Shown here: in pieces, positions 7,863-38,459 of the stretch
How the letters are laid out: every line of letters starts with the position of its first letter
Numbering within the stretch: the first letter of the stretch is position 1
Source: an uncultured Lachnospiraceae bacterium
GTDB lineage: Bacteria > Bacillota > Clostridia > Lachnospirales > Lachnospiraceae
Reading direction: 5' to 3'
Assembly: GCA_947630005.1 (NCBI GenBank)
Contig: CANRGB010000017.1
Span: 1 to 38,459 of the forward strand
Length of the DNA stretch: 38,459 bases
Made by a program: the position numbers and the translations under genes
Notes under the pieces: generated by a model
The model's input: only the letters and a program-made list of their open reading frames with translations
What the model was told of the DNA's origin: nothing
Database searches by the model: none

Positions 7863-9419
7863 TTATAACATCAGCAGCTGTTTCCCGCAGTTCGGGCAGT
7901 ATTTATAATCCGAAGCGATGCGGCCGCCGCAGTGAGGGCAGACCGGATACAGAGCCCTTTTTATTTTTGCCTGATATTCCCTGATTTTCATGTAAAACGC
8001 TTTCTCATCAAACACCGGAAAATTCTTTTTACTCTTCAACTCTCTCCGGTTTGTTACCACCACCAGCGTCAGATCATCTGTAACCGCTTTCCGGTATTCC
8101 TCTCCGGCCATGTAATTATAATAAAAGTTCGCGGTCTCTTCCACATCTCTGCGCTCCTTCTGTTTCACCTCAAACGCAGGCTGAATAAACGGATAATACA
8201 CTCCGTTTCCTACTTTTTCACCCTGGACAAACTTGTCCAGTACGCCGTCCGTAGCCATGACAAATCCGTTTACATGAGAACTCACTTTGAATACCTGCCA
8301 GCATCCGGAGCCGGCCTGCAGCGGATAAACGCTGCCTGCCTCCTCTCCTTTGATCCTGGATGTGACCAGTTCCAGCTTTCTTTCTTCCGTAAGCGCGACC
8401 ACACCGCCGTCACCTGCGTGTGATATATAAAGATCGGTTCCGTTATAGATTGCGATCGTCAGGGTCGACTGAAAGGAATATTCCAGCTGATCCATCTTTT
8501 CTGCCATCTTCTGTACAGAATCATACGCGCACTGCATTGCCTCTCTTAATAAATTCCCGATCTCTCTGTCCTCGAATTTTTTATCCGGGCAGGCATCCAG
8601 CTTTTTTTTCAGAAATTCGGCTGATGATTTCACGGCGGTTTCCGCTCCGTAATGAGACAGAGCGCAGCTTCCGACGCCATCCGCGATGACCGCGATAATG
8701 ATCGGAGTATCATCTCCAGAAACAAGAACCTGGCAGCAGTCCTGACAGGGCAGTCCGTTATTTTTATGGGACTCCCCTTTTTGGGAGAATCCCCAGTATG
8801 TGATACCCTTTCTCATTCCCACAAAAGGCACGCACTCATTTTCCGGCACTTCCTCCGGAGGAGTTTCTCCTGCTGGCTTTTGCCCGGAAGGAACCTCTTC
8901 TAGCCCTTTCTCCAGAGAGATTTCTACCGTTAATATTTCTTCCGAGACTTCTTCTGAGGGGTTTTCTGACACTCCCCCCGAAGTAGTTTCTCCTGCTGGC
9001 TTTTGCCCGGAAGGAACCTCTTCTAGCCCTTTCTCCGGAGAGATTTCTACCGTTAATGTTTCTTCCGAGACTTCTTCTGAGGGGTTTTCTGACACTCCCC
9101 CCGAAGGAGTTTCTCCTGCTGGCTTTTGCCCGGAAGGAACCTCTTCTAGCCCTTTCTCCGGAGAGATTTCTACCGTTAATGTTTCTTCCGAGACTTCTTC
9201 TGAGGGGTTTTCTGACACTCCCCCCGAAGGAGTTTCTCCTGCTGGCTTTTGCCCGGGGGGAACCGCTTTTGCTTCTTCCTTCACAGAGACTTCTTCTGAG
9301 GGGTTTTCTGACGCTCCCCCCGAAGTAGTTTCTCCTGCTGATGCACTCTTTGAAGAGATTTCTTTATCTGTTTCCTCGTTCTTGTTAGGCTCCGAGTTTT
9401 GCCTTTTTTTCGAAAACAT
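7863..9419 (-). CDS. PP2C-type Ser/Thr phosphatase with tandem repeats and zinc ribbon
   Basis: About 518 residues from the ATG at 9419, chosen because AGGAGG (9428-9433) lies 8 bases upstream; an in-frame ATG at 9452 lacks such a site. Residues about 25-185 are a low-complexity, acidic tandem repeat (41-residue unit). Then comes a PP2C domain with VIADGVGSC, SHAGDGGVVAL, ATDGVLDKF and DDLTLVVV, covering the metal-binding Asp residues. The C-terminus is a zinc ribbon, CPHCGGRIASDYKYCPNCG. The gene forms a triad with the adjacent kinase and VWA (TerY) genes, the arrangement known as the TerY-P triad and seen as yegI/pphC/yegL in E. coli. It should reverse phosphorylation by the neighbouring kinase (inference). 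The repeats may be a flexible tether. Confidence 0.9.
   Translation of the reverse strand: MFSKKRQNSEPNKNEETDKEISSKSASAGETTSGGASENPSEEVSVKEEAKAVPPGQKPAGETPSGGVSENPSEEVSEETLTVEISPEKGLEEVPSGQKPAGETPSGGVSENPSEEVSEETLTVEISPEKGLEEVPSGQKPAGETTSGGVSENPSEEVSEEILTVEISLEKGLEEVPSGQKPAGETPPEEVPENECVPFVGMRKGITYWGFSQKGESHKNNGLPCQDCCQVLVSGDDTPIIIAVIADGVGSCALSHYGAETAVKSSAEFLKKKLDACPDKKFEDREIGNLLREAMQCAYDSVQKMAEKMDQLEYSFQSTLTIAIYNGTDLYISHAGDGGVVALTEERKLELVTSRIKGEEAGSVYPLQAGSGCWQVFKVSSHVNGFVMATDGVLDKFVQGEKVGNGVYYPFIQPAFEVKQKERRDVEETANFYYNYMAGEEYRKAVTDDLTLVVVTNRRELKSKKNFPVFDEKAFYMKIREYQAKIKRALYPVCPHCGGRIASDYKYCPNCGKQLLML
8868..9340 (-). repeat. 123-bp in-frame tandem repeats in the phosphatase gene
   Basis: The same element starts at 8891, 9014, 9137 and 9260, exactly 123 bases apart (41 codons). 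The copies at 9014 and 9137 are almost identical; the outer ones are shorter or diverged. The coded unit contains SEEVSEETLTVEISPEKG and SGQKPAGETPSGGVSENP. Because the period is a multiple of three, copy-number change would keep the frame. Confidence 0.95.
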
Positions 9420-9464
9420 AATTTCTGCCTCCTTTACCTGATTTCCCAACAATAGTCCATCCTT

Positions 9465-10526
9465 CTACGCTTCCTGCTGATTCATGCACCAGGGGCATAT
9501 GCGGTTGTGAGCGGGATAAACATGATTCTTGTTCACCGGACAGCATCTCAGTTTTAAATTCGGCTCAGCCATTCCGTAAGGCTGAAGGGCCACGGCCCAG
9601 TCATATGCTGTCGCCCGCCTGGGGATATTTTTCTTCGCAGTCAGAGCGGTATAGTTGAATGTCTTCTCAAACAGACTGAGTATCTCAGGCGGGAGCATCG
9701 ATGGTTTCTGCGACCAGGACGGTATCTTTTTCCCTGGAACATCCCGCACATACGCGCACTCCCCGTTGCATATTGCCTGATTCGCGGAGATGCTGCTTAT
9801 GGACGCGCCCGTTGTTATCACCCCTCCAAATGGATCCGCGTTATCCATCAGAAGACGGAAAATATGTATAGCCAGCGAAAAATAATCGCTGCTTCTTGTG
9901 AATTTCGCCCTGGACAGATTCCCCACCGCCTGCAGTTCCGGCGCCAGCATCTCCGGCAGCCCCACCGTACAGGGGAAATGTTCTCCGGTAACTGGATCCG
10001 TTATATCAAAGGAATCGCAGTCTATAATTACAATCGTCCCGTTCTGAACATCCACCGCTATATTGCTCTGATTAAAATCTCCAATCACAATATTATAGCT
10101 GTGCAGATAATTCACAAGCCACGCCAGATGATATGCAAACTGCACCGAGTATTTCCACGTATAATCAGGATACAGCTTTTTCCGAACCGCATTCCTGCCT
10201 CCACGGTACATATCATAAATTTTATATTCCGTACAGATCTTCGGCATGACAAATCCCACCATAACTCCGTTTTCATATAAAATATCATGCGGCCAGACAA
10301 AACGATGTATTCCCGAAATAGTATACGGCACATGCATAGCCAGCATAGCCTTTAATTTCCGTTCCATCACAGACCGGGCATTCACATCCGAAAATCTGCT
10401 GTCTCTATAAACCTTGGCCACGAGACCGTCATATCCTGAAAGCGCATACACAGTACCTTCCCCGCCGGAACCAAGTCTCCTGCCGGTCGTATAACAGGCT
10501 CCTGACTGCCCATAATAAGTTGCCAT
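9465..10526 (-). CDS. TerY-associated protein kinase with C-terminal zinc ribbon
   Basis: 353 residues from the ATG at 10526 (GGGGTGG upstream); an in-frame ATG at 10550 would add eight residues and has a weaker site. It is a eukaryote-like Ser/Thr kinase: glycine loop LGSGGEGTVY (18-27), catalytic Lys in VAKVY (K38), catalytic loop IGDFNQSNI (the HRD His-Arg is replaced by Ile-Gly, but Asp and Asn are kept), metal Asp in IDCDSF in place of DFG, then MLAPELQ. The C-terminus CCPVNKNHVYP...CPWC looks like a zinc ribbon. The atypical loops match the YegI-like kinases of TerY-P triads. It lies 45 bases before the phosphatase gene, so the two are likely co-transcribed. Confidence 0.88.
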   Translation of the reverse strand: MATYYGQSGACYTTGRRLGSGGEGTVYALSGYDGLVAKVYRDSRFSDVNARSVMERKLKAMLAMHVPYTISGIHRFVWPHDILYENGVMVGFVMPKICTEYKIYDMYRGGRNAVRKKLYPDYTWKYSVQFAYHLAWLVNYLHSYNIVIGDFNQSNIAVDVQNGTIVIIDCDSFDITDPVTGEHFPCTVGLPEMLAPELQAVGNLSRAKFTRSSDYFSLAIHIFRLLMDNADPFGGVITTGASISSISANQAICNGECAYVRDVPGKKIPSWSQKPSMLPPEILSLFEKTFNYTALTAKKNIPRRATAYDWAVALQPYGMAEPNLKLRCCPVNKNHVYPAHNRICPWCMNQQEA

Positions 10527-10619
10527 TCTAATCACCACCCCATCAGACATAGCAGGCAGGCCTGCAATAACCGATTAGCCCATACACGCCTGCCCCTTCA
10601 GGTTCTGCGCCACGCGATA

Positions 10620-11312
10620 TCAGATCCCCACTGTGATATAATCCGGAGTCGGCGGAAGCTTGACCGTATTCGATACGTTCGGATCTGACTGAGCTACCAC
10701 GCTCAGACTCCGGCTCAGCCATACAAACGCTTGCTTAAAGTGCTCCGTATCCGCCTTCAAAACGGGCTTTTCCGATGACTCCGTCGGATAATAACTCTGC
10801 AGCTCCGCCGTGTTCGCCTGTCCGATCCCCATCGGCATATAAACGACTTGCTTATTCCGGATTGCTTCCTTCAGCCGTTTCTTTACTGTTTTTTCCTTTT
10901 CTGTATCGGTCGGTTCACCATCCGTCAGCAGAAACAGCCAGGGACGATAATAGGATACGCCCTTCTCTCTGTATTCCAGCTTTCTTGCTTCGAGCGCATC
11001 AAGACCAGCCTCGATCGCCCCATTCAGAGACGTAAGTCCGCCAGCTGAAAGAGTCGGCGCCTGATACTCTTCAGCAGGCCGGAAGCCTATCTCCGTCTGC
11101 ACGCTGCTCCCGAATGAAATGATGCAGACCTCGGCCCTTCCAAGCGCAAGCTGATCCTCCTTCAGCGCATTGCCGAATTCGATAAGGCCCTGGTTAAGCT
11201 CCTCGATCGGTGCGCCCGACATGGAACCGGAGCGATCCACAAGAAGCACTGCGGAAATATGGCTCTCTCCAAGGTTTGTAATAGGTAACGGGTCTTTTGT
11301 AAACTGCAGCAT
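10620..11312 (-). CDS. terY: VWA domain protein of the TerY type
   Basis: 230 residues from the ATG at 11312 (AAAGG 9 bases upstream; the ATG three codons earlier abuts the site and is less likely). The VWA MIDAS is complete: DRSGSMSG (D26, S28, S30), a Thr in GGLTSLNG, and an Asp in LLTDGEPTD. The fold binds a divalent metal and serves as a docking platform. TerY proteins go with a kinase and a PP2C phosphatase in phosphorylation triads linked to ter operons, and both partners follow directly downstream. No membrane segment is present, so it is cytoplasmic. A structured leader lies upstream (11381-11461). Confidence 0.88.
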   Translation of the reverse strand: MLQFTKDPLPITNLGESHISAVLLVDRSGSMSGAPIEELNQGLIEFGNALKEDQLALGRAEVCIISFGSSVQTEIGFRPAEEYQAPTLSAGGLTSLNGAIEAGLDALEARKLEYREKGVSYYRPWLFLLTDGEPTDTEKEKTVKKRLKEAIRNKQVVYMPMGIGQANTAELQSYYPTESSEKPVLKADTEHFKQAFVWLSRSLSVVAQSDPNVSNTVKLPPTPDYITVGI

Positions 11313-11380
11313 AGTTTTCATCCTTTCTTAATAATACTTTATTGACAGATACACAGAAATATATGATAATGATACGGATA

Positions 11381-11635: not shown

Positions 11636-14005
11636 CTATCGGACCGTAATTCTCATTGTCCTTGAAGCCGAAGAATAATTCGTGTTCCCCGCCGCCGTGA
11701 CCGTAACCCTGTAAATTCCCCGGGGCGTCCCTTTTCTTACCGTTACGGTTCTTCCGGACACCTGTATATACCTCGATCCGCTTCTGGCGGAGACAGTTCC
11801 TTTCGCGTTCACGGTCTGGATCCGGAAGGACTTTCCGCTGTACCTCAGGCTGTTTTTTGTACAGCTGCAGCTGCTCTTTGTCAGACGGAAATTCTGCGCC
11901 GCTTTTCTTATTACAAAAGTTCTGACCGCGGAGCCTGTATAATCCCCCTTCCCGGTGATAATCACAGACGCCGTCCCCGCGTTGACATTGTTCTGGTATC
12001 TTACCGTGTAGTCAACGTCCTTCAAAAGCAGCCTGCCATCGTTTCTGACTGTGACAAAAGGCGTTTTTTCCCTGCCGTTATAGGTGTATGCCGTTGAGGA
12101 AAGTCTTAACGTACAATCCGAAACGGAAACCTTTCGCCCATCGGAGACAGCGGAATCCGGCTCACGCTCCGTGGTGACCTTTATCCTGCCGGAATCAATG
12201 ATCTCCCCGGTTTCGGAGTTCCTGAGATAAATCTCAAGCGTTCCGGTTCCCTCCCCGGTCCCTGTAACGGTCAGATCGTGGCTTTTTCCTCTCCAGCTTC
12301 CTTCCCAGGCCGCCCGAAAGCAGGCGTCGCCGCTTTTTTTAAAGAGAAATCCGATTCTTGGCGGCAGTTCCCCCGAAGCGGATATCGTAATCCTGCTGCT
12401 CTCTCCGGCTTTCACCCGCACCTCTGTCTTTGAAAAGCTGACCTTCGCCGGCTGCGCCCCGGTCACATGAATCGTCACGTTTTTCGATGCGCTGTTATAA
12501 TTGCCGTCTCCTGAAGCCCTGACCGTAATTACCGCGTTTCCTTCCGCTTTCGCTGTGACCAGACCGTCCTCATCTACAGACGCCGCGCTGCTGTTATCAG
12601 AAGAAAACGAGATGGTTCCGATCCCTTCCGTCAGAATCTGCAGGGTGCCGCCCGTTTTCAGCGTATCCGTCCCCACAGAAACTTTCAGATTCTGCTCCGC
12701 TTTTCTGATCACAAAAGATCTGCTCACAGCGCCGCAGTAAGCTCCTTTTCCGGTAATGTTCACTGCTGCAGTGCCGGCATTGACATTATCCCGGTAAGCG
12801 ACCTCATAATCCGTTCCCTGTTTCAGCGCGGACCCATTGCGCCGCACCGTGACATCCGGCCTGCATGCTCTTCCGCTGTACGTATATTCCGTCTCTGACA
12901 GCGTGATCTCGCACTCCTCCATGGTATTCTGAACAGTCGGGACAGCTTCTGTCTTTTTCTCCCCGCATCTCTCACATGTATAGACCCTGACTCCTTCTTC
13001 CGTGGCTGTCGGCTGTTTTGTCACGGTTCCCTGGCCATAACGATGCGAACAGCTGACGACAAACTGTACCTTCACAGAATCTTTGATGACAAGCTGAGAC
13101 GGACTCTGTTTCCAGATCAGCTGGAAGGTCACCGTCTGCATCCCTCTTGCGTAAGCGTATACGGTATAGTAAACTTTATTCCTTTCCGTCCTCGACGGGC
13201 TGACGCTCACGCAGTTCCCGGAGGGAGCGTCGTCTTTTATGTAAACAACGTCGGATAAGTCCACCCCCGTCGTGAGGGTCAGCGTCCTCTCCCCGGCAGC
13301 CATGTCCATATTTACGACTGATGAGGAACTGCTTATTGTGAACTCTCCGGGAATATTCTTATCACCTCCGTTGATACTGATAAGATAGCTCTCGTAATGA
13401 GTAACCATATGCGTATATGTTCTCCCCGCGATCGTATACCTTTTCCAGCAGCGGTACGTGCAGTCGACAACCAGATCCACCGAGGAATATGCCAGCGCCT
13501 TTACCGTACAGCTGGTTCCGCCCATGGTACGGATTTCCAGGTCTGAGCTGTTGCTGTTCCATAAACCGCTGATGAATGTTTCATCGGGCTCAATCGTAAG
13601 ATACAGTGTCTTCTGCTGATTTACATTCAGTGTGACCGGAATACTGGACACAGCGGCCGCACCCACCGGTTCTTCAAGCTCTATCTGCTCCGTTCCCTGC
13701 GCGGCCTGCTCTGCTTCCGCTTCGCACGAATCTGCCGCGGGAACAGTTACATCGGAAATATCCTCAATCACAACCGGAATCTCAGATCCGCTCTGTGCAG
13801 GCGGATTCTCTCTTCCTGCGGCTTCCCCGATCCCGATGATCTCCTCCTCCGTTTCCGGCCCGCCGGCAGCGGCAGGGAGCGCTCCGGTTTCTTCTTCTAT
13901 GATCAGTTCCTCTGCCGAAACCGGCATAGACTGCAGTCCCGAAACGAACATGCATACCGCAAGCAGCATTACCAGCACTTTTTTCTTTGATTTCGCTAAA
14001 TTCAT
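11636..14005 (-). CDS. secreted Ig-like (Big_2) repeat protein
   Basis: 789 residues from the ATG at 14005 (GGAGG 10 bases upstream); a longer frame to 14074 lacks a site and would bury the signal peptide. A signal peptide is clear: MNLAKSKKKVLVMLLAVCMF followed by VSGLQSMPVSAEE. An acidic stretch follows. Further on is a Cys-pair repeat (HRYGQGTVTKQPTATEEG ... YTCERCGEKKT), two copies of a repeat with YTYSGRACRPDVTVRRNG and TDYEVAYRDNVNAGTA (near 390-460 and 670-740), and a Big_2-like domain with DEDGLVTAKAEGNAVITV. These modules are common in secreted proteins of Clostridia. No sortase motif or SLH domain ends the protein, so its anchoring is unknown. It sits between the TerY triad and the kinase-NACHT gene, on the same strand. 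Confidence 0.85.
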   Translation of the reverse strand: MNLAKSKKKVLVMLLAVCMFVSGLQSMPVSAEELIIEEETGALPAAAGGPETEEEIIGIGEAAGRENPPAQSGSEIPVVIEDISDVTVPAADSCEAEAEQAAQGTEQIELEEPVGAAAVSSIPVTLNVNQQKTLYLTIEPDETFISGLWNSNSSDLEIRTMGGTSCTVKALAYSSVDLVVDCTYRCWKRYTIAGRTYTHMVTHYESYLISINGGDKNIPGEFTISSSSSVVNMDMAAGERTLTLTTGVDLSDVVYIKDDAPSGNCVSVSPSRTERNKVYYTVYAYARGMQTVTFQLIWKQSPSQLVIKDSVKVQFVVSCSHRYGQGTVTKQPTATEEGVRVYTCERCGEKKTEAVPTVQNTMEECEITLSETEYTYSGRACRPDVTVRRNGSALKQGTDYEVAYRDNVNAGTAAVNITGKGAYCGAVSRSFVIRKAEQNLKVSVGTDTLKTGGTLQILTEGIGTISFSSDNSSAASVDEDGLVTAKAEGNAVITVRASGDGNYNSASKNVTIHVTGAQPAKVSFSKTEVRVKAGESSRITISASGELPPRIGFLFKKSGDACFRAAWEGSWRGKSHDLTVTGTGEGTGTLEIYLRNSETGEIIDSGRIKVTTEREPDSAVSDGRKVSVSDCTLRLSSTAYTYNGREKTPFVTVRNDGRLLLKDVDYTVRYQNNVNAGTASVIITGKGDYTGSAVRTFVIRKAAQNFRLTKSSCSCTKNSLRYSGKSFRIQTVNAKGTVSARSGSRYIQVSGRTVTVRKGTPRGIYRVTVTAAGNTNYSSASRTMRITVR

Positions 14006-14172
14006 TTGTTCTCCTCCATTCTTTCCATCCAGCACTGCAATTGTTCCCCAGTTTGAATTTAAGGTTACTGTCATCTCCTGCCTGTGATCATTTTTAAAAT
14101 CACGGCTCTAAAATACACCCACCTTAAAAATCGCTTTGAAAACTTTTTCCAGACGGAACAGAAACCATAAAT

Positions 14173-15372
14173 TTACTCGCTTAAAGCGATATACCAGGAC
14201 GGAGCAAATGTGATATCTTCTCTCAGAAACGTGATGGTGACCGTATTATTTTCCCATTCCATGTTCACCGCATAATCCGGCATTTTTATAAGCCATTCGT
14301 TATCCTCTTCCTGACGGACAAGTTCTGCCGCTTCCCCCGCCGTTTCCAGGTAACTGACCAGATCTTCCCGGCTGACATCCTTAACCTGCATGTAAACTCC
14401 ATACGTCTCGTACGGTATCTCATCCAGATTATCACCGGACTGCGGATAGATCATTTCCCCGTCTTCTGTCCTGTAATAGCTGATATAGCCCGAGACATCC
14501 GGCTGGGAATTATACCAGACCGGTACAGGCAGCAGATCCGGCACATTCGTCATTTCATGCAGCTGCGAACGCAGTAAATCCAGATCACCGCTCTGCTCTA
14601 TCTGCTCCTGGTCATATTCCGCCGCATCCAGTATCGCTTCAATTCCATCCATCCGATACGTAAGCGAATCCATCTCAGCAAATACATCTTCAGCAGCCTC
14701 CGACACATCCTCCTCCTCATCGATCCATTCGGAAGCTTCCCCGAATAAAACCGGATAATCTTCTGTCAGGGAATCCCACTGCTCTTTTTCTCCCAGCTGT
14801 AAAAAGAGATAGTTTGTCGTCAGACAGTCATATCTGCTCGTGAGCATAATTTCATCTTTTTTACAGGCCAGTTCCTCTTTCAGCACATCCATATCATTTT
14901 CAAAAAAAACGCCTTCTTCCAAATGCTCCAGCAGAGTTCCCCGTACAAACGTATGCGCCGTTTCAATATCTCCTGTAAGAGACTGGAATTCCTCAGACTG
15001 ATAGGCCGCATCCACTCCCCCCAGCGCCAGCGCGGCATACTCTTCCGCTGTCAGATTATCTTCCGCCATGCAAAGATCCTCCAGATATCTGGCAGACGCG
15101 ATACATGCCGAACGGGCCTTTACCAGATCCTGCCAGTCTCCGCTGTCCAGGTATGCTTCCGCATAACCGGACGCCCACCTCTGGCTGGCATACATGCCTT
15201 CCTTCGTCCGCAGATAATCTTTCCAGACCGTCACAAGATGATCCGCTGCCTTCGAGAATTCATCCGTATCAGCAGCCTCCGTCTCTGCGACCCCTGCACC
15301 CAGAGAACATAAAAAAACTGCCGCTGCCGCTATCCATATTCCACATTTTCCGTTTTTAGAAAATTTTCTCAT
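14173..15372 (-). CDS. secreted acidic protein of unknown family
   Basis: 399 residues, not recognised. The N-terminus MRKFSKNGKCGIWIAAAAVF with LCSLGAGVAETEAAD looks like a cleavable signal peptide. The mature part is acidic and mostly helical in appearance, with no Cys pairs or enzyme motif that I can name. Its ATG (AGGAG upstream) overlaps the 3' end of the kinase-NACHT gene by 17 bases, so the two genes are translationally linked. Since the kinase protein has one membrane segment and a C-terminal outside-type region, this secreted protein may be its extracytoplasmic partner (inference). Confidence 0.75.
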   Translation of the reverse strand: MRKFSKNGKCGIWIAAAAVFLCSLGAGVAETEAADTDEFSKAADHLVTVWKDYLRTKEGMYASQRWASGYAEAYLDSGDWQDLVKARSACIASARYLEDLCMAEDNLTAEEYAALALGGVDAAYQSEEFQSLTGDIETAHTFVRGTLLEHLEEGVFFENDMDVLKEELACKKDEIMLTSRYDCLTTNYLFLQLGEKEQWDSLTEDYPVLFGEASEWIDEEEDVSEAAEDVFAEMDSLTYRMDGIEAILDAAEYDQEQIEQSGDLDLLRSQLHEMTNVPDLLPVPVWYNSQPDVSGYISYYRTEDGEMIYPQSGDNLDEIPYETYGVYMQVKDVSREDLVSYLETAGEAAELVRQEEDNEWLIKMPDYAVNMEWENNTVTITFLREDITFAPSWYIALSE

Positions 15373-18310
15373 TTTCCTGCTCCTTTCCTGTCTTATAATT
15401 CAGACCGTTTTGTAACAGAAGATGTTTCGCATCGTCTCTTTCCGAAATATATTTATTTACATTCTCAACAGCTTCCTCCGTAATCTGATACTGATACTTC
15501 ATGGAATCCATTGTCAGCATTTTTTCATATTCACGCAGTTTCTCCTTGTCTTCCTCAGAGCCGCTTTTTTTCATCGCGTCCAGTTCCGGGGCAATTACCC
15601 TGTTAAAATACCCTCCCAGGACATACGCGTCTTTTTCTGTCAGATCCTCAAGCTGTCCCAGAAATTCTTCTCCGCGCCAGTTCGACAGGCTTTCATCCTG
15701 CCGTCCTTTTTCCGCGGTCTGTATATACTGAAGATATTCGTTCCCCTTTTCTGCCTCGCTGCGGAGCAGATCCACATATGTCTCCGTATCCAGTTCGGCG
15801 CCTGACCAGGGCATTACCTCTCCGGAGGAAAGCAGGTCCTCAAGCATTTGCGCGGCCTGTTCGAACGATTCTGAGTTATCCTGCTCGAAATCTCTCTGAT
15901 TTGTGCCCATCCATATCTGGCATTCAATTTCATTGCCGTCTTTCTGATACCCGATCATCTCCTGCACTTTTCCATACATCTCCCCGACTTTTACGTAGGC
16001 GGAAACCGCTTTATCCAGTACATTTTCAGACAAACTGGCATTATACGCAGGCGGACCGGAGAAAAACGGCATGTACACCCAGCGGTACGTTCCCATCATC
16101 AGCAGGATTCCCATCGCTCCGAGAAACGCAATGCGGCCGTTTCTCCTGCGCCTGAATTTTTTTTCTGACGGCTCTCTGAGCGCAATCAGATATTCCTCAA
16201 TCACCTGGTGAATTATGTGATACCGCTTCTGTTCGTCCCGCACAATCAGTCCAAGCCTGCGCCACAGAATATCATGCACGATATAGCCGTACCATTCCTC
16301 TTCATTCATTTTTCCGCCCCGGATATCCGATAAATGTCCAATCCACTGCGGAAAAATCTTTATCATATCCCTTCCGGCCGCCCTTCGGTAACATTTCCTT
16401 ACCGCCGGAAAAAGCTGTTCATCCAGAACCGCCGTTCCTGCTTTGTGAATATATGCCGCAATCTCCGGAAGAACATAGTACAGAGCCGCTTCAACAGCCC
16501 ACCGATCCGGCGAATTATCCTGCAGACCGCGAATCGCCTTGCCGCATATCGCGTCAAAATAATATTCCAGAAGCTGCTTCTGAGAATCTATAAATACCTG
16601 CTTTTCCCTGGCCTGCGCGGTCTGGATAAAGATCGAAAGCATCATAGGCGTCCGCAAAAGCTGACACAGTTCCGGACTTTCCGGGCACAGCAGCCCATGC
16701 TCCGCCAGTATTTTTGTCATTTCTTCCTGGCGCAAAGGACAGAGTTCTATTTTCTGAAATGTAATCCTTTCGTCTCCGCTGCGGCCCGCCATCAGAAAAC
16801 GGACTCCCTCCAGTTCGGACAATTCATGAATCTCTTTAAAAAGAAGCTCCGTATCACCGGTTATCTCATTTAACCCATCCAGTAATATTACCAGGCGCGG
16901 ACGCTCACCCCGTTTTGTATGAATCGGCATCCCCAGCAGCCTGAGCAGCTCGTGTCTCGCCGTTTCCAGGCTGTCTGTCTCCGGCTTGAAGCGCAGCCCC
17001 ATCAGAATTCTGTCCTTAATATAATTTTTTTCGTCCGGCTTCCATCCATAAAGAGATATATAAGTCAGGGCCGGCTCCAGCGGACTGTAAACAGGACTTT
17101 GAACATACACGGAGCGCAGCAGAGCCGTAGTTTTTCCTACGCCGCCGCCGCCCAGTAAAATGGAGGACGTCCCTTTCGGCGATGTGATGAATTCTGTCAG
17201 ATCTTTTATCTGAAAAGTTTCCCCGTTCTCCGCCGCGGCCGCTATCGGATAAAGACGGCTTTCCTCGCTTATGTAATTCAAGCCGGGGTTCCTTTTTACC
17301 GTATGAATCACATCCGTCCTTCCGGCTTCCCACAGCGCCCAGTGCGTAATCCCTTTTCCGTCGATCCTGTCCTGCAGCTCCTCCAGATCCCGCCTCATTT
17401 CCGCCGCACTCTGGTATCTGCGCCTTGCCAGGGAGACAAGTCCCTTTTTCAGTATCTGCCTCACCATGCTCCACACAGTTTCCGGCATTCCTTCCAGGCA
17501 CTTTGCTCCGGAAAGATCCGGAGTGACCGTGCGGAGCATCTCTTCCTCCGTCAGGCGCCTGCCGGCAACACACTGAAAGAACACAGCTGTCATCGAATAA
17601 AGATCCGATGCAAATCCGATGCTGCCGATCCTTCCGCTTCTGATTTCAGGGGACGTATATCCTTCCTTTGTGCTGTGATAGATAATTGTTCCGCTGTGTA
17701 TTTCTTCCAGCGAATGAACACTGTTATAATCAATCAGCGTCACTCTTTCCTTTTTCCCGTTTCCGATCAGAAGAATATTATCCGGACTGATATCCAGATG
17801 CAGAAATCCGGAATTGTGAAACGTCTCCAGCACATTCAAAGCTCCCTGCAGACGGCGTATGTGAGTCGTCAGCGGTATTTTTTCCACACCTTCCAGCTCA
17901 AATTCTCTGTTCATGCTTCTGCCGCCGGTATACCCAAGCACAGAATATAATGTATTATGCAGTTCAAAGGTATTAATATTCGAATCAATGTCTCCCGGAT
18001 ATTTTTCCAGAATCCGGATATGGACTTCATTTCCTCTCATAAAACTGGTACGATGAAGTTCCGCCTCTTCCTGCGCGCCCGGATCCCACCGAATGTCTCC
18101 GTTCATATCCCGATATATGTTTCCTTCCGGATGATAGGGAAACAGCTCCTTGATCAATACCTGATGCCTTAAATTTTCCGACTGTCTGTCCGGATACGTC
18201 CCAAGATATACAAGCGCGTTTGAACCGCAGCCTGCCAGCGATTCAATTTTACAGTCCATTCCCGGAAAAGACAGTCTGGTTCCTGTCTGTAAAGGCTCTC
18301 GTCTGTCCAT
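15356..18310 (-). CDS. Ser/Thr kinase - NACHT-like NTPase - membrane segment fusion
   Basis: 984 residues. A kinase domain (about 1-320) has a glycine loop AGCGSNALVYLG, Lys in VLIKELFP, catalytic loop HLDISPDNIL near 170, the DFG equivalent IDYNS near 191, and GYTSPEIRSG. A STAND/NACHT-like NTPase follows: Walker A LGGGGVGKTTALL near 388 and Walker B RLVILLDGLNEITG near 478. The Asp-Gly-Leu-Asn-Glu form is typical of NACHT proteins. One membrane helix lies at about 727-750 (IAFLGAMGILLMMGTYRWVY). The last 230 residues are charged, helical and unrecognised. GGAGG precedes the ATG. A kinase joined to a signalling NTPase suggests a stress or invasion sensor; the trigger and targets are unknown. 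Confidence 0.85.
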   Translation of the reverse strand: MDRREPLQTGTRLSFPGMDCKIESLAGCGSNALVYLGTYPDRQSENLRHQVLIKELFPYHPEGNIYRDMNGDIRWDPGAQEEAELHRTSFMRGNEVHIRILEKYPGDIDSNINTFELHNTLYSVLGYTGGRSMNREFELEGVEKIPLTTHIRRLQGALNVLETFHNSGFLHLDISPDNILLIGNGKKERVTLIDYNSVHSLEEIHSGTIIYHSTKEGYTSPEIRSGRIGSIGFASDLYSMTAVFFQCVAGRRLTEEEMLRTVTPDLSGAKCLEGMPETVWSMVRQILKKGLVSLARRRYQSAAEMRRDLEELQDRIDGKGITHWALWEAGRTDVIHTVKRNPGLNYISEESRLYPIAAAAENGETFQIKDLTEFITSPKGTSSILLGGGGVGKTTALLRSVYVQSPVYSPLEPALTYISLYGWKPDEKNYIKDRILMGLRFKPETDSLETARHELLRLLGMPIHTKRGERPRLVILLDGLNEITGDTELLFKEIHELSELEGVRFLMAGRSGDERITFQKIELCPLRQEEMTKILAEHGLLCPESPELCQLLRTPMMLSIFIQTAQAREKQVFIDSQKQLLEYYFDAICGKAIRGLQDNSPDRWAVEAALYYVLPEIAAYIHKAGTAVLDEQLFPAVRKCYRRAAGRDMIKIFPQWIGHLSDIRGGKMNEEEWYGYIVHDILWRRLGLIVRDEQKRYHIIHQVIEEYLIALREPSEKKFRRRRNGRIAFLGAMGILLMMGTYRWVYMPFFSGPPAYNASLSENVLDKAVSAYVKVGEMYGKVQEMIGYQKDGNEIECQIWMGTNQRDFEQDNSESFEQAAQMLEDLLSSGEVMPWSGAELDTETYVDLLRSEAEKGNEYLQYIQTAEKGRQDESLSNWRGEEFLGQLEDLTEKDAYVLGGYFNRVIAPELDAMKKSGSEEDKEKLREYEKMLTMDSMKYQYQITEEAVENVNKYISERDDAKHLLLQNGLNYKTGKEQENEKIF

Positions 18311-18395: not shown

Positions 18396-19556
18396 TCAGT
18401 CCTCAGGAAGTTCTCCAAACATTTCTTTAAACAAATCCCTCAGTCTGGAGTCCATATCGAACAGATTCTGCGCGCAGATGCCGTACATAATCAGCCAGTC
18501 AAAGGGAGAGCGGGGATCCAGCGTTGAGAAGCCGCAGCTGATCAGCATATCATTGAGACGCTGATACATATCTTCAAAAATATCCTCCGCCGTAAATTCA
18601 TCATCTTCCGGCTCTTCCGCCGTAGCAAGGAAAAGCAGAATCAGCACCTTTCTCGTCACATCAATCCTGCGGTTAGACATTTTGGACAGTCCGGCCTCAT
18701 TCGGCCAGTTTTTCCGCACATATTTGTGCACAATCTTTCTTACATAGTCCTCCTCCGCCTCCTGTTCCTCATTCCTCACATTATTCTGGAACATATATTC
18801 TCTGAGAACATCCTTTAATGACAGATCTTCCCCTTTGAATACAGCAGATGCTTTTACCAGTTCATCCTGAGGATTCTGCAGCCTTTTCAGCCAGACCTTA
18901 AAATAATGATACGCCGTGTTATGAAACTGTCCCAGTTTGTCCGAAGACCGGCGTATATAATCAAGCAGCTCTTCTTCTGTGCGCAGTTTATATATTTCAT
19001 TGCGGATAATTGGTGTGAAGCTGTCCGGAAGCGGATTTTTACTTTCTTTTTCAGGCCTTGGAATCGAAGCTGCTTTTTTCTCCAGTTCCTGCGCCTCCTG
19101 ATAAGTCATTCCGTTTTTTAACGCAAATATGTACGCGATCTCGCTCGGATTCCTCCAGTGAAATCCCTCTTCTGATATCGACAAGACAAGCTGCTCTGCC
19201 TTATCATAAGAAAGTCCAAGAATAAAGCAGAGCTCTATGGCTTTTTCTTTATCGATTGCGACTGACTTATCCGCATTCAGCCATCCCCGCACCAGTCTTT
19301 CCACCGCTTCTTTCTTTCTGCCGGGATCATTTTTTAGCAGACCTTCAATCAGAACCGGCTTCAGGTCTTTTTCAGGGGCAGCTTTCTGCAGTTTTTCACG
19401 AAAAGATCGGATTTTCGCTTCCTTCTCCAGATAACAGACCGCTTCCTCAATATTCATCCCGGATACCGCATGGTCAAACATCCCCTGTGAAACAACTGTC
19501 ATTTTCTGTCTCATATCATAACTTTCCTTTTTTGCGTCGTGATCATCCCATCCCAT
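18396..19556 (-). CDS. conserved-looking protein of unknown function, kinase-linked
   Basis: 386 residues, not recognised. It starts MGWDDHDAKKESYDMRQKM (GAGGAG 8 bases upstream of the ATG). It is soluble, highly charged and appears all-helical, with segments such as MNIEEAVCYLEKEAK, EKAIELCFILGLSYDKAEQL and a C-terminal DPRSPFDWLIMYGICAQN. The latter parts look like a helical repeat or HTH-like bundle, and the phrase FILGLSYDKAEQLVL resembles helices of small helix-turn-helix regulators. It precedes the kinase-NACHT gene by 85 bases and has its own promoter, so it may be a regulator or substrate of that kinase (inference). Confidence 0.7.
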   Translation of the reverse strand: MGWDDHDAKKESYDMRQKMTVVSQGMFDHAVSGMNIEEAVCYLEKEAKIRSFREKLQKAAPEKDLKPVLIEGLLKNDPGRKKEAVERLVRGWLNADKSVAIDKEKAIELCFILGLSYDKAEQLVLSISEEGFHWRNPSEIAYIFALKNGMTYQEAQELEKKAASIPRPEKESKNPLPDSFTPIIRNEIYKLRTEEELLDYIRRSSDKLGQFHNTAYHYFKVWLKRLQNPQDELVKASAVFKGEDLSLKDVLREYMFQNNVRNEEQEAEEDYVRKIVHKYVRKNWPNEAGLSKMSNRRIDVTRKVLILLFLATAEEPEDDEFTAEDIFEDMYQRLNDMLISCGFSTLDPRSPFDWLIMYGICAQNLFDMDSRLRDLFKEMFGELPED

Positions 19557-19656: not shown

Positions 19657-19691
19657 TTTATTTTAATTTTTATTGTTTAAAAAATGATCGA

Positions 19692-19772
19692 GCAGGAGGC
19701 GGTTTTTCCTCCTGCCCGCCTGCGCGGCCCGCATGCTGCGCAGCAGCTGATTTCCTTATGCGGGCCTGCGCA
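19692..19772. other. two further strong hairpins next to the ATPase terminator
   Basis: GCAGGAGG (19692-19699) / CCTCCTGC (19708-19715) forms one hairpin. The arms 19721-19734 and 19758-19772 (core GGCCCGCAT / ATGCGGGCC, extended by TGCGC / GCGCA with one bulged T) form another. With the terminator at 19774-19805 this gives three stems in 115 bases. No gene lies here. Confidence 0.7.
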
Positions 19773-36875: not shown

Positions 36876-37018
36876 AATTTACCTCCTAGCTGCCGCCAAA
36901 CCGACACCGTCTGTATTTTCCTTTGCCGGAATCCGCTATCGTTCCGCAGCCTAAATTCTTAAATTCATACCCCCGGGAAGGGGCGAGATACCGTGATCTT
37001 CGGAATTACATACTTGTA

Positions 37019-37313
37019 ATTTCAATCCACACTCCCGCATAGGGAGTGACGTCGGACCACAATCCCTTAACGCTGTCTACAAGGATTTCAATCCACACTC
37101 CCGCATGGGGAGTGACTAACAATTTACATCGGTTTTCAGTATGCGAAAGAATTTCAATCCACACTCCCACATAGGGAATGACCTTTATCATACACTTGAT
37201 ATAAGTGTATGTCAAATTTCAATCCACACTCCCACACGGGGAGTGACTTTCCCGTTTTTTTCTTTTTCAAAATGATATTTTATTTCAATCCACACTCCCA
37301 CACGGGGAGTGAC
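37019..37313 (-). CRISPR. type I-C CRISPR array, 5 repeats, 4 spacers
   Basis: 32-base repeats at 37019-37050, 37085-37116, 37151-37182, 37216-37247 and 37282-37313; spacers of 34, 34, 33 and 34. Read on the minus strand the repeat begins GTCACTCCCC and ends GGATTGAAAT, the type I-C form, so the array is transcribed leftwards from the leader at 37314 on. The two repeats next to the leader are identical. The three distal ones each carry changes (for example CGCAT or CACATAGGGAATG in place of CACACGGGGAGTG), as expected for old, decaying ends. No further good repeat is found. Confidence 0.97.
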
Positions 37314-37571: not shown

Positions 37572-37790
37572 TTACAGCATCAGAATCCCCTCCTGTTCAA
37601 AAGTTTCTTTTGTTCCATAATGTTCCACTTTATTTTTGTAATTGTTTCCCAGATAATAGAATCTCAGGCTGTCCTTTTCTTGATCTATAATCTTCAATAA
37701 TTCTGCTTTCAACAGTTTGCATTGTCCCGCATCCAGGATACACTCAAATACAGAATTCTGGACACGCTGTCCGTGATTCACACCATGCTG
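37572..37790 (-). pseudogene. cas2: cas2 remnant, 5' end missing
   Basis: The frame reads LQHGVNHGQRVQNSVFEC then ILDAGQCKLLKAELL, IDQEKDSLRFYYLGN and ends after YGTKETFEQEGILML. This is the last two thirds of Cas2; the GQRVQNSVFE motif is typical. The N-terminal part with the first strand and its catalytic Asp (as in VTYDV) is absent: upstream in this frame is a stop within about 12 codons. The remnant abuts the truncated cas4, so the product is almost surely non-functional. No Cas1 is present between them. Confidence 0.85.
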
Positions 37791-37963
37791 TAAGAAATTT
37801 CTATTCTGCTGCCATTATGTGCTATAGTATGAAACAATTGTCCGTCAACAGTTCTCTCATTCTCCGCCCACTGCTGTTCAATATGAATCAGAGCCCACTG
37901 CCTGCGGCAGTATGCAAAATGCTGCAGGCCTGAGAGCATCAGATAATCATCTTCCTCATACAT
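37778..37963 (-). pseudogene. cas4: cas4 remnant, 3' end missing
   Basis: Starts MYEEDDYLMLSGLQHFAYCR then RQWALIHIEQQWAENERTV and DGQLFH, the N-terminus of type I-C Cas4. After DGQLFH the protein should continue with ERVHD-like sequence and the nuclease core; here it runs TIAHNGSRIEISYSMV and stops at 37778. Only 61 residues of about 220 remain; the RecB-like Asp/Glu/Lys motif and the three C-terminal cluster cysteines are gone. The ATG starts 5 bases after the cas7 stop, the normal cas7-cas4 linkage. Confidence 0.88.
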
Positions 37964-37967
37964 AAAC

Positions 37968-38459
37968 TCACATCCCGGCAATGATTTCCGGCTCAAGCCC
38001 CGGCAGATTTTCAAGTGTAATCACATAATCATCAACGGAAGCCGGAATCTGCACGTCGTCTTTTAAAGTAATTTTCAATGAATCATGTACCTTCGCTGCC
38101 GAATACTGTCCGATCTTATTGGAATGACGCCACCAGTAAACAGAAACCACTTCCATACTGCCGTCCGGTCTCGCTGCGGATGCGTCATTGATAAACAGAG
38201 TGCGAAGCGCCTCTTTCAGTTTTTCTGCGTCTTCCTCAGAAAATCCGGTCTTTTCCGCCAGCTGAACATTTATGGAACCTTTGATTTTATACAAGCCAAA
38301 TTCCACAAAGTGTTTCATTCCCATTGTATCGGAACTTTTCTTTTCCGCCGGCTCACTGTTTACGCTTTTTGTGATCTGCATGCTGTTGATATCCACCGGA
38401 GAACAGCTGACCGCCTGATGGATTGACACAGGTCCTCTTACTCCCACAGACACACCGTC
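37968..38459 (-). CDS. cas7: Cas7 (Csd2, type I-C), 5' end outside window
   Basis: The frame is open to the right edge, giving the last 163 residues or so of Cas7, the backbone subunit of the type I-C Cascade that lines crRNA. Family features: VRGPVSIHQAVSCSPVDI, MQITKSVNSEP, DTMGMKHFVEFGLYKIKGSI, INDASAARPDGSMEVVSVYW, WRHSNKIGQYSAAKVHDSL and a C-terminal DYVITLENLPGLEPEI. No internal stop or frameshift is visible. The upstream genes (cas3, cas5, cas8c expected) lie beyond the window, so whether interference is intact cannot be judged. Confidence 0.93.
   Translation of the reverse strand, partial: DGVSVGVRGPVSIHQAVSCSPVDINSMQITKSVNSEPAEKKSSDTMGMKHFVEFGLYKIKGSINVQLAEKTGFSEEDAEKLKEALRTLFINDASAARPDGSMEVVSVYWWRHSNKIGQYSAAKVHDSLKITLKDDVQIPASVDDYVITLENLPGLEPEIIAGM

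Follow-up and report, generated by a model that had tools for sequence, protein, structure and literature searches.

What is the role of a bacterial protein that joins a serine/threonine (Ser/Thr) kinase, a NACHT-type NTPase and a membrane helix in a single chain? This question is raised by a gene, here called B, on contig CANRGB010000017.1 of an uncultured Lachnospiraceae bacterium (GenBank assembly GCA_947630005.1), of which the stretch analysed, at its full length of 38,459 nucleotides, is referred to below as the window. Gene B occupies the central position in A-B-C, an operon conserved in Clostridia, in which gene A encodes a helical protein and gene C a protein with a signal peptide. We consider it moderately probable that B is a transmembrane receptor Ser/Thr kinase with an NLR-type NACHT module beside the membrane, and that it senses conditions outside the cell together with C. 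The domain architecture of B, its conservation, the A-B-C operon, the covariation of C with the ectodomain and the fusions between C and B are established here by sequence comparison and structure prediction, and the steps of signalling are proposed on that foundation. A preliminary description had seen in this gene a layered phospho-signalling sensor within an island of ter genes. A receptor kinase with a NACHT switch is what remains of that proposal, whereas the link to ter does not survive.

Domain architecture of B

The architecture outlined above is almost certainly correct, as judged from alignments and a predicted model. The open reading frame occupies exactly 15356-18310 on the minus strand, has a strong Shine-Dalgarno sequence (AAAGGAGG) directly 5' of its ATG, and places the kinase, the NACHT-type switch, the membrane helix and an outside tail in one protein, as first proposed. 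Because the window's own genome holds a paralogue (E 3e-118) and genome_contigs holds 98 relatives, B lies far beyond what chance would produce, and the original observation is confirmed as real. Our analysis covered the loci of the best 80 of these 98 relatives (denoted by L numbers), which by record or tree labels are Bacillota, mostly Lachnospiraceae, together with Oscillospiraceae and others. Flanking sequence of at least 8 kilobases was available upstream for 51 of the 80 loci, downstream for 54 and on both sides for 35.

The kinase domain matches PF00069 with an E value of 4.2e-10, which exceeds the curated cut-off. All of the Lys, Asp, Asn and Asp positions that had been described as intact are found in B (K54, H171-x-D173, N178 and D194). 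When the window protein is aligned with the 80 relatives, the Asp residues of the HxD and DFG-type motifs (D173 and D194) are invariant in all 81 rows, and the VAIK Lys (K54) is kept in 73.

The P-loop and Walker B assignments were likewise sound, since GGGGVGKTT fits GxxxxGK[ST] and VILLDGLNE fits hhhhDGhxE. PF05729 (NACHT) is matched by 24 of 29 chosen family members at E<=0.001, with a best value of 1.3e-10, and by 28 of the 29 at E<=1. The predicted model of an orthologue gives a strong match to the NACHT fold, with nucleotide-binding, helical and winged-helix domains, and the NTPase fold anticipated for residues 370-600 is found there; the NACHT part took up the fold-search list for this model. 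At the Walker B region, residues are present in 74 rows of the alignment, nine of which (L091, L097 and L099-L105) are NACHT-less by their motifs and were forced into the alignment, leaving 65 NACHT-bearing proteins. The P-loop Lys, the Walker B Asp and the sensor Arg are invariant in all 65, and a winged-helix His (H701 in the window) occurs without exception in the 63 whose sequence extends to its position. In NLRs, the winged-helix His contacts ADP. The alignment of H701 to NLRC4 falls in the third domain of that alignment, a domain that is below significance when taken alone. An unused domain would be expected to lose its nucleotide-handling positions, and their invariance therefore argues that the NACHT domain is not idle.

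The predicted membrane helix is directly preceded by the sequence RRRRNGR. This segment is covered by 63 NACHT-bearing proteins, the window protein included; their hydrophobic peaks there never fall below 1.4, and in 54 they are 1.7 or higher.

Operon partners of B

The overlap of B with a secreted-protein gene, already noticed in the preliminary description, amounts to 17 shared nucleotides (15356-15372), and that gene, C, proves to be a conserved partner. Homologues of C lie downstream of B in 52 of 72 loci and are fused to B in 3 of the same 72. With the addition of a locus that has a shorter downstream sequence, C is fused to the outside end of B in four cases (L031, L037, L039 and L047). 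Because these fusions join mature C sequence directly to the end of the B ectodomain, and a second strongly hydrophobic segment is absent from them, the C-terminus of B and the C protein would reside in one compartment.

The presence of C also follows the class of the ectodomain. In the 73 of 80 loci with enough sequence, C accompanies 55 of 56 helical ectodomains versus 1 of 17 others (Fisher p 5e-14, kinship ignored). The exceptions are L089, which is helical and lacks C, and L093, which belongs to another class and has C; the class of two of the 17 others (L051 and L094) is unsure, as these are short or split frames. Among the non-helical ectodomains that were scanned, L040, L048 and L050 are beta-propeller-like, L103 matches Big_2 and L090 has no Pfam match. 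The window's C alone as a query finds C in only 20 of the 80 loci, and the remainder requires a subfamily profile (A9). The profiles used (A7, A10, A3, A8 and A9) contain some of the proteins that were later classified with them, and L095 and L096 were retested without themselves. The C subfamilies are linked to each other by comparison. We also considered that the B ectodomain and C might be mutual duplicates, and rejected this because hhalign gave no relation between them.

Gene A has a homologue directly upstream of B in 65 of the 74 loci with enough sequence, and it is present with 13 of 13 NACHT-less forms of B, a count from which the truncated locus L070 was left out. Its product is predicted to be all-helical (predicted local distance difference test score, pLDDT, 89.3), and its Thr181 does not vary among 41 aligned members. 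The best Pfam match of the window member has an E value of 0.045, the best match among PDB sequences (E 0.32) reveals no relative, and a fold search gave no clear match. A second A-B-C set is present on another contig of the window's genome. Furthermore, a divergent third set in this genome (L111, contig C10, 671-6917) comprises an A-like gene of 432 amino acids, a kinase of 1110 amino acids and a gene of 470 amino acids with a lipoprotein-like start. This third set suggests that there is a wider class of operons with A, a kinase and a secreted partner.

Proposed mechanism

We propose that C, secreted or lipid-anchored, either binds to the B ectodomain or is a component of it, and that the two would jointly sense a ligand or an envelope change outside the membrane. 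By analogy with NLRs, the resulting change, passed through the membrane helix, might free an ADP-locked NACHT module, and the ATP-bound module could then gather receptors into clusters. Clustering would bring kinase domains close enough for trans-phosphorylation, and the signal may exit through A, the most constant partner. Outside-in sensing together with C is distinctly likely. The full ATP/ADP-gated relay from the kinase to A is a more tentative proposal, which we judge slightly more apt to fail than to hold.

In a similarly tentative spirit, B might be the prototype of a class of membrane-bound NLRs. In these receptors, a stimulus outside the cell would act across a membrane helix on an inflammasome-type NACHT, which in turn would trigger a Ser/Thr kinase; C would be a dedicated secreted co-sensor and A a dedicated output protein in the cytoplasm. 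In such a class, the NACHT would be a cassette that has been dropped more than once, and the helical, beta-propeller and Ig-like ectodomains would be swapped in the way that NLRs swap their sensor repeats.

A number of observations weigh against this interpretation. The window's NACHT region, when searched alone, has zero Pfam matches at E<=0.001, and at E<=1 its best matches are nSTAND_NTPase5 (0.003), DUF4833 (0.08) and AAA_22 (0.099), with NACHT absent from its matches. The fold assigned to this region is taken from a modelled orthologue that is about 50% identical to the window's B, and the placement of the domains in that model is unsure because its predicted template modelling score (pTM) is 0.51. 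The membrane helix of the window protein is weak by hydropathy (best 19-residue mean of 1.48, at residues 727-745), and homology between the two B ectodomain subfamilies is undetectable by comparison. The catalytic loop of canonical kinases has a Lys, and the kinase of B, whose loop is HLDISPDN, must therefore be regarded as divergent. Gene A is found elsewhere nearby in 4 of the 74 loci and is not found in 5, and since A has no recognisable domain, its role as the output is guilt by association. Lastly, the locus counts take every relative singly and ignore kinship.

Alternative explanations

The rival explanation that fares best, while still an unlikely one, is that B is an anti-phage defence protein of the bNACHT/Avs type whose kinase is a toxic effector released on phage envelope attack. 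Bacterial NACHT proteins with an N-terminal effector, a central NACHT and a C-terminal sensor protect against phage, according to PMC12169576. The patchy distribution of B is in keeping with such a function (matches at E<=1e-60 in 11 of the 397 genomes of the family, a count to which the window's genome and matches confined to the kinase contribute), as are matches to models of defence proteins, such as PADLOC PD-T4-6 (E 7.5e-19), MkoA and mad6. However, among the PADLOC matches listed (25 of 31), all lie in the kinase domain, and the NCBIfam matches are far below their cut-offs, with 52 bits against 460 for MAD6 and 18.7 bits against 1500 for Avs4, the latter in one short stretch (E 0.0002). 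Beyond the kinase domain and this weak Avs4 stretch, PADLOC and NCBIfam offer no named system for B, in agreement with the preliminary description. Viral contigs held no relative of B in a search sensitive to close relatives only, and 53 plasmid records and 1 phage record gave only partial matches, none spanning 80% of the query. Carriage of B by phages, plasmids or viruses was also considered as a possibility in its own right, and no full-length relative turned up to support it. The recurrent neighbours of B are ABC transporters, XRE regulators, Sel1-like proteins and dynamin-like proteins by reading of the sequences (no defence-model scan was made), and the sensor is predicted to lie outside the cell, where it is conserved with a secreted partner.

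Somewhat less probable again is the view that B works chiefly like the receptor kinases PknB and PrkC, monitoring the envelope or nutrients, and that its NACHT is only a rigid spacer or scaffold. Four relatives (L095, L096, L098 and L106) lack the NACHT and keep the kinase, the membrane helix, the helical ectodomain (E 1e-47 to 3e-55), A and C, which argues that the receptor works without a NACHT. In an 82-row tree of kinase domains, these four are nested among NACHT-bearing forms. The simplest reading is that receptors of this kind can have or lack a NACHT module between the kinase and the membrane and that it was lost more than once, although gains are also conceivable; the root of the tree is uncertain, given the very long branch of the outgroup. 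A mere spacer, however, would not need the nucleotide-handling positions or the winged-helix His that NACHT-bearing members keep without exception, and we continue to favour a receptor kinase whose NACHT acts as a switch.

We regard as improbable the further proposal that B has a pseudokinase and that its NACHT provides the working output. The divergent catalytic loop speaks for it, as does the Arg that replaces the VAIK Lys in 7 of 81 proteins, six of which belong to the beta-propeller clade (L048, L049, L050, L051, L056 and L058). Against it stand the Lys that the window and most relatives keep at this position and the invariant D173 and D194. Moreover, A is missing upstream in four of the six Arg-bearing propeller members, as would follow if A depended on an active kinase; of the other two, L058 has A downstream only and L051 has too little sequence. 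The loci near which A is not found (L040, L048, L049, L050 and L056) all belong to the propeller clade, and four of them carry the Arg, while L040 keeps the Lys yet lacks A, so that the loss of A concerns one clade and perhaps one event. The Arg-bearing members of this clade are possibly pseudokinase offshoots. Because A is kept in the 13 NACHT-less forms and is missing near mostly Arg-bearing members of the propeller clade, the pattern fits A as a kinase substrate or output, a conclusion that rests on that one clade.

Genomic neighbourhood

Upstream of the operon, the window carries four TerD genes, TelA, YceG_bac, AIM24 and a P-type ATPase, the last named by reading its sequence. Downstream lie vWA, kinase and PP2C genes, which we take to be a TerY triad. 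Gene B had been described as next to this triad; the three genes are indeed present, but C and an Ig-like gene intervene before B. TerY, kinase and PP2C genes also occur near 4 of 80 relatives (L035, L062, L074 and L076), a number with no background rate for comparison. TerD, TelA, YceG, AIM24 and the P-type ATPase, in contrast, occur in 0 of the 80 related loci, 35 of which offer at least 8 kilobases of sequence on each side. YceG_bac is present in 3 of 47 genomes of the genus, and a full-length relative of B accompanies it in just one of these three, that of the window. The parts examined of the ter clusters of two genomes of the same genus (G007 and G037) lack A, B and C, those of G037 being on short contigs. 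A terminator-like hairpin separates the ter operon from A; a scan with the hairpin consensus found 6 sites versus 4.6 +/- 2.1 in shuffled sequences, which is a chance-level number, and this site has the longest stem. Given that linkage is 0 of 80 and that ter clusters occur without A-B-C, the idea that B is a layer of a Ter/TerY phospho-signalling island was rejected as very improbable and is largely refuted as a family trait, and the ter and TerY genes around it most likely lie there by coincidence.

Table 1. Positions of gene B, its predicted parts and neighbouring features in the window
Feature	Position	Strand	Basis or remark
Gene B, kinase - NACHT - membrane helix - ectodomain, 984 amino acids	15356..18310	-	Open reading frame with ATG start; Pkinase; family-level NACHT; orthologue fold; Shine-Dalgarno
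Kinase domain of B, residues 1 to ~315	17366..18310	-	Pfam match 112-255; K54, D173, N178, D194; 81-protein alignment
NLR-type NACHT module of B, residues ~370-725	16136..17203	-	Alignment; Pfam at family level; orthologue fold
P-loop GGGGVGKTT, residues 387-395	17126..17152	-	Alignment
Walker B LLDGLNE, residues 476-482	16865..16885	-	Alignment
Winged-helix His H701	16208..16210	-	Aligned with His of NLRC4 YKFFHKSFQEY; 63/63 in family alignment
Predicted membrane helix of B, residues 727-745, positive side in	16076..16132	-	Hydropathy; long helix 386-436 of orthologue model
Predicted helical ectodomain of B, residues 750-984	15359..16063	-	Orthologue model; alignment
Gene C, signal-peptide protein	14173..15372	-	Helical part and C-terminal beta part in fused orthologue model; ectodomain partner
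Gene A, 386 amino acids, all-helical, no Pfam family	18396..19556	-	Conserved immediately upstream of B
Terminator-like hairpin, 11 pairs and T run	19689..19718	-	Between P-type ATPase gene of ter operon and gene A
TerY-type vWA gene	10620-11321		Downstream triad
Kinase gene of triad	9465-10550		Downstream triad
PP2C gene	7863-9452		Downstream triad

Several other neighbours deserve mention. Directly downstream of C and outside the conserved operon, the window (11636-14074) encodes a secreted-looking protein of 812 amino acids with Big_2 and MBG-like Ig domains, and matching proteins are encoded close to L058, L065, L094 and L103. Genes for dynamin-like GTPases, often paired, lie within about 10 kilobases of the kinase gene at 8 of 80 loci (L029, L030, L053, L074, L076, L084, L096 and L105), Sel1-like proteins near 9 and a small XRE regulator near 13, all three names coming from reading the sequences with no profile search. 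A CRISPR-type array in the window (37001-37313) has five repeats of about 32 nucleotides (ATTTCAATCCACACTCCC...GGGAGTGAC or close to it) at a spacing of 65-66 nucleotides, and nearby is a Cas4-like fragment (37778-38014) whose Pfam match to Cas_Cas4 (E 0.0002) is just below the cut-off. Elsewhere in the window's genome (L113, contig C177, 1036-4130), a phosphoesterase-like gene is followed by a separate NACHT-like NTPase of 669 amino acids that runs off the contig, and this NTPase is a different STAND-like protein.

Comparison with known systems

PASTA kinases such as PknB, PrkC and Stk1 combine a cytoplasmic Ser/Thr kinase, one membrane helix and an extracytoplasmic sensor. This layout is shared by B, and the NACHT-less relatives match it. 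Unlike these receptors, B has a NACHT between the kinase and the membrane and a divergent catalytic loop; the NCBIfam model PknB_PASTA reaches 40.3 bits against a cut-off of 450, and no PASTA repeat is matched by Pfam in B at E<=0.01. The defence kinases PD-T4-6, MkoA and MAD6 have a related kinase domain, but the similarity ends with that domain, leaving the rest of the architecture uncovered.

A second set of relevant systems comes from Kaur, Aravind and colleagues, who placed STAND NTPases and S/T/Y kinases within one network of ternary and STAND conflict systems, and B also pairs a STAND NTPase with a kinase. In the available portions of this work (PMC7159879 and PMC8195603), the ternary-system kinases are mostly catalytically disrupted and come from actinobacteria, rarely chloroflexi, and no protein with kinase, NACHT, membrane helix, ectodomain and A and C partners appears in those portions. 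Membrane-linked NACHT proteins are not wholly new, because one of two copies at a locus was predicted to have periplasmic NACHT and lectin-type domains in PMC10907252. Searches of the open-access literature, which did not extend to the original survey of bacterial NLRs, turned up no kinase-NACHT-membrane-ectodomain protein with A and C, and we therefore consider the novelty of B to be provisional.

If our interpretation is correct, then an NLR-type switch has been coupled directly to a kinase that spans the membrane and carries a sensor outside the cell. Many of the Clostridia concerned come, according to their record labels, from animal guts. Bacterial Ser/Thr signalling would gain a new class of receptor as well as a new partner protein, A. 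Given that natural relatives exist with and without the switch, the effect of adding or removing a NACHT in a working receptor becomes testable.

NLRs are known to act as intracellular sensors, and the predicted periplasmic NACHT-lectin copy of PMC10907252 is the one exception that we met in the literature. In NLRC4, NLRP3, NOD2 and the bNACHT proteins, sensing is carried out by cytoplasmic repeats, whereas B would rely instead on a membrane helix, an extracytoplasmic domain and a secreted partner. B further differs from NLR-type STAND proteins and from bNACHT proteins in that its predicted effector is a Ser/Thr kinase and its operon supplies a partner, A.

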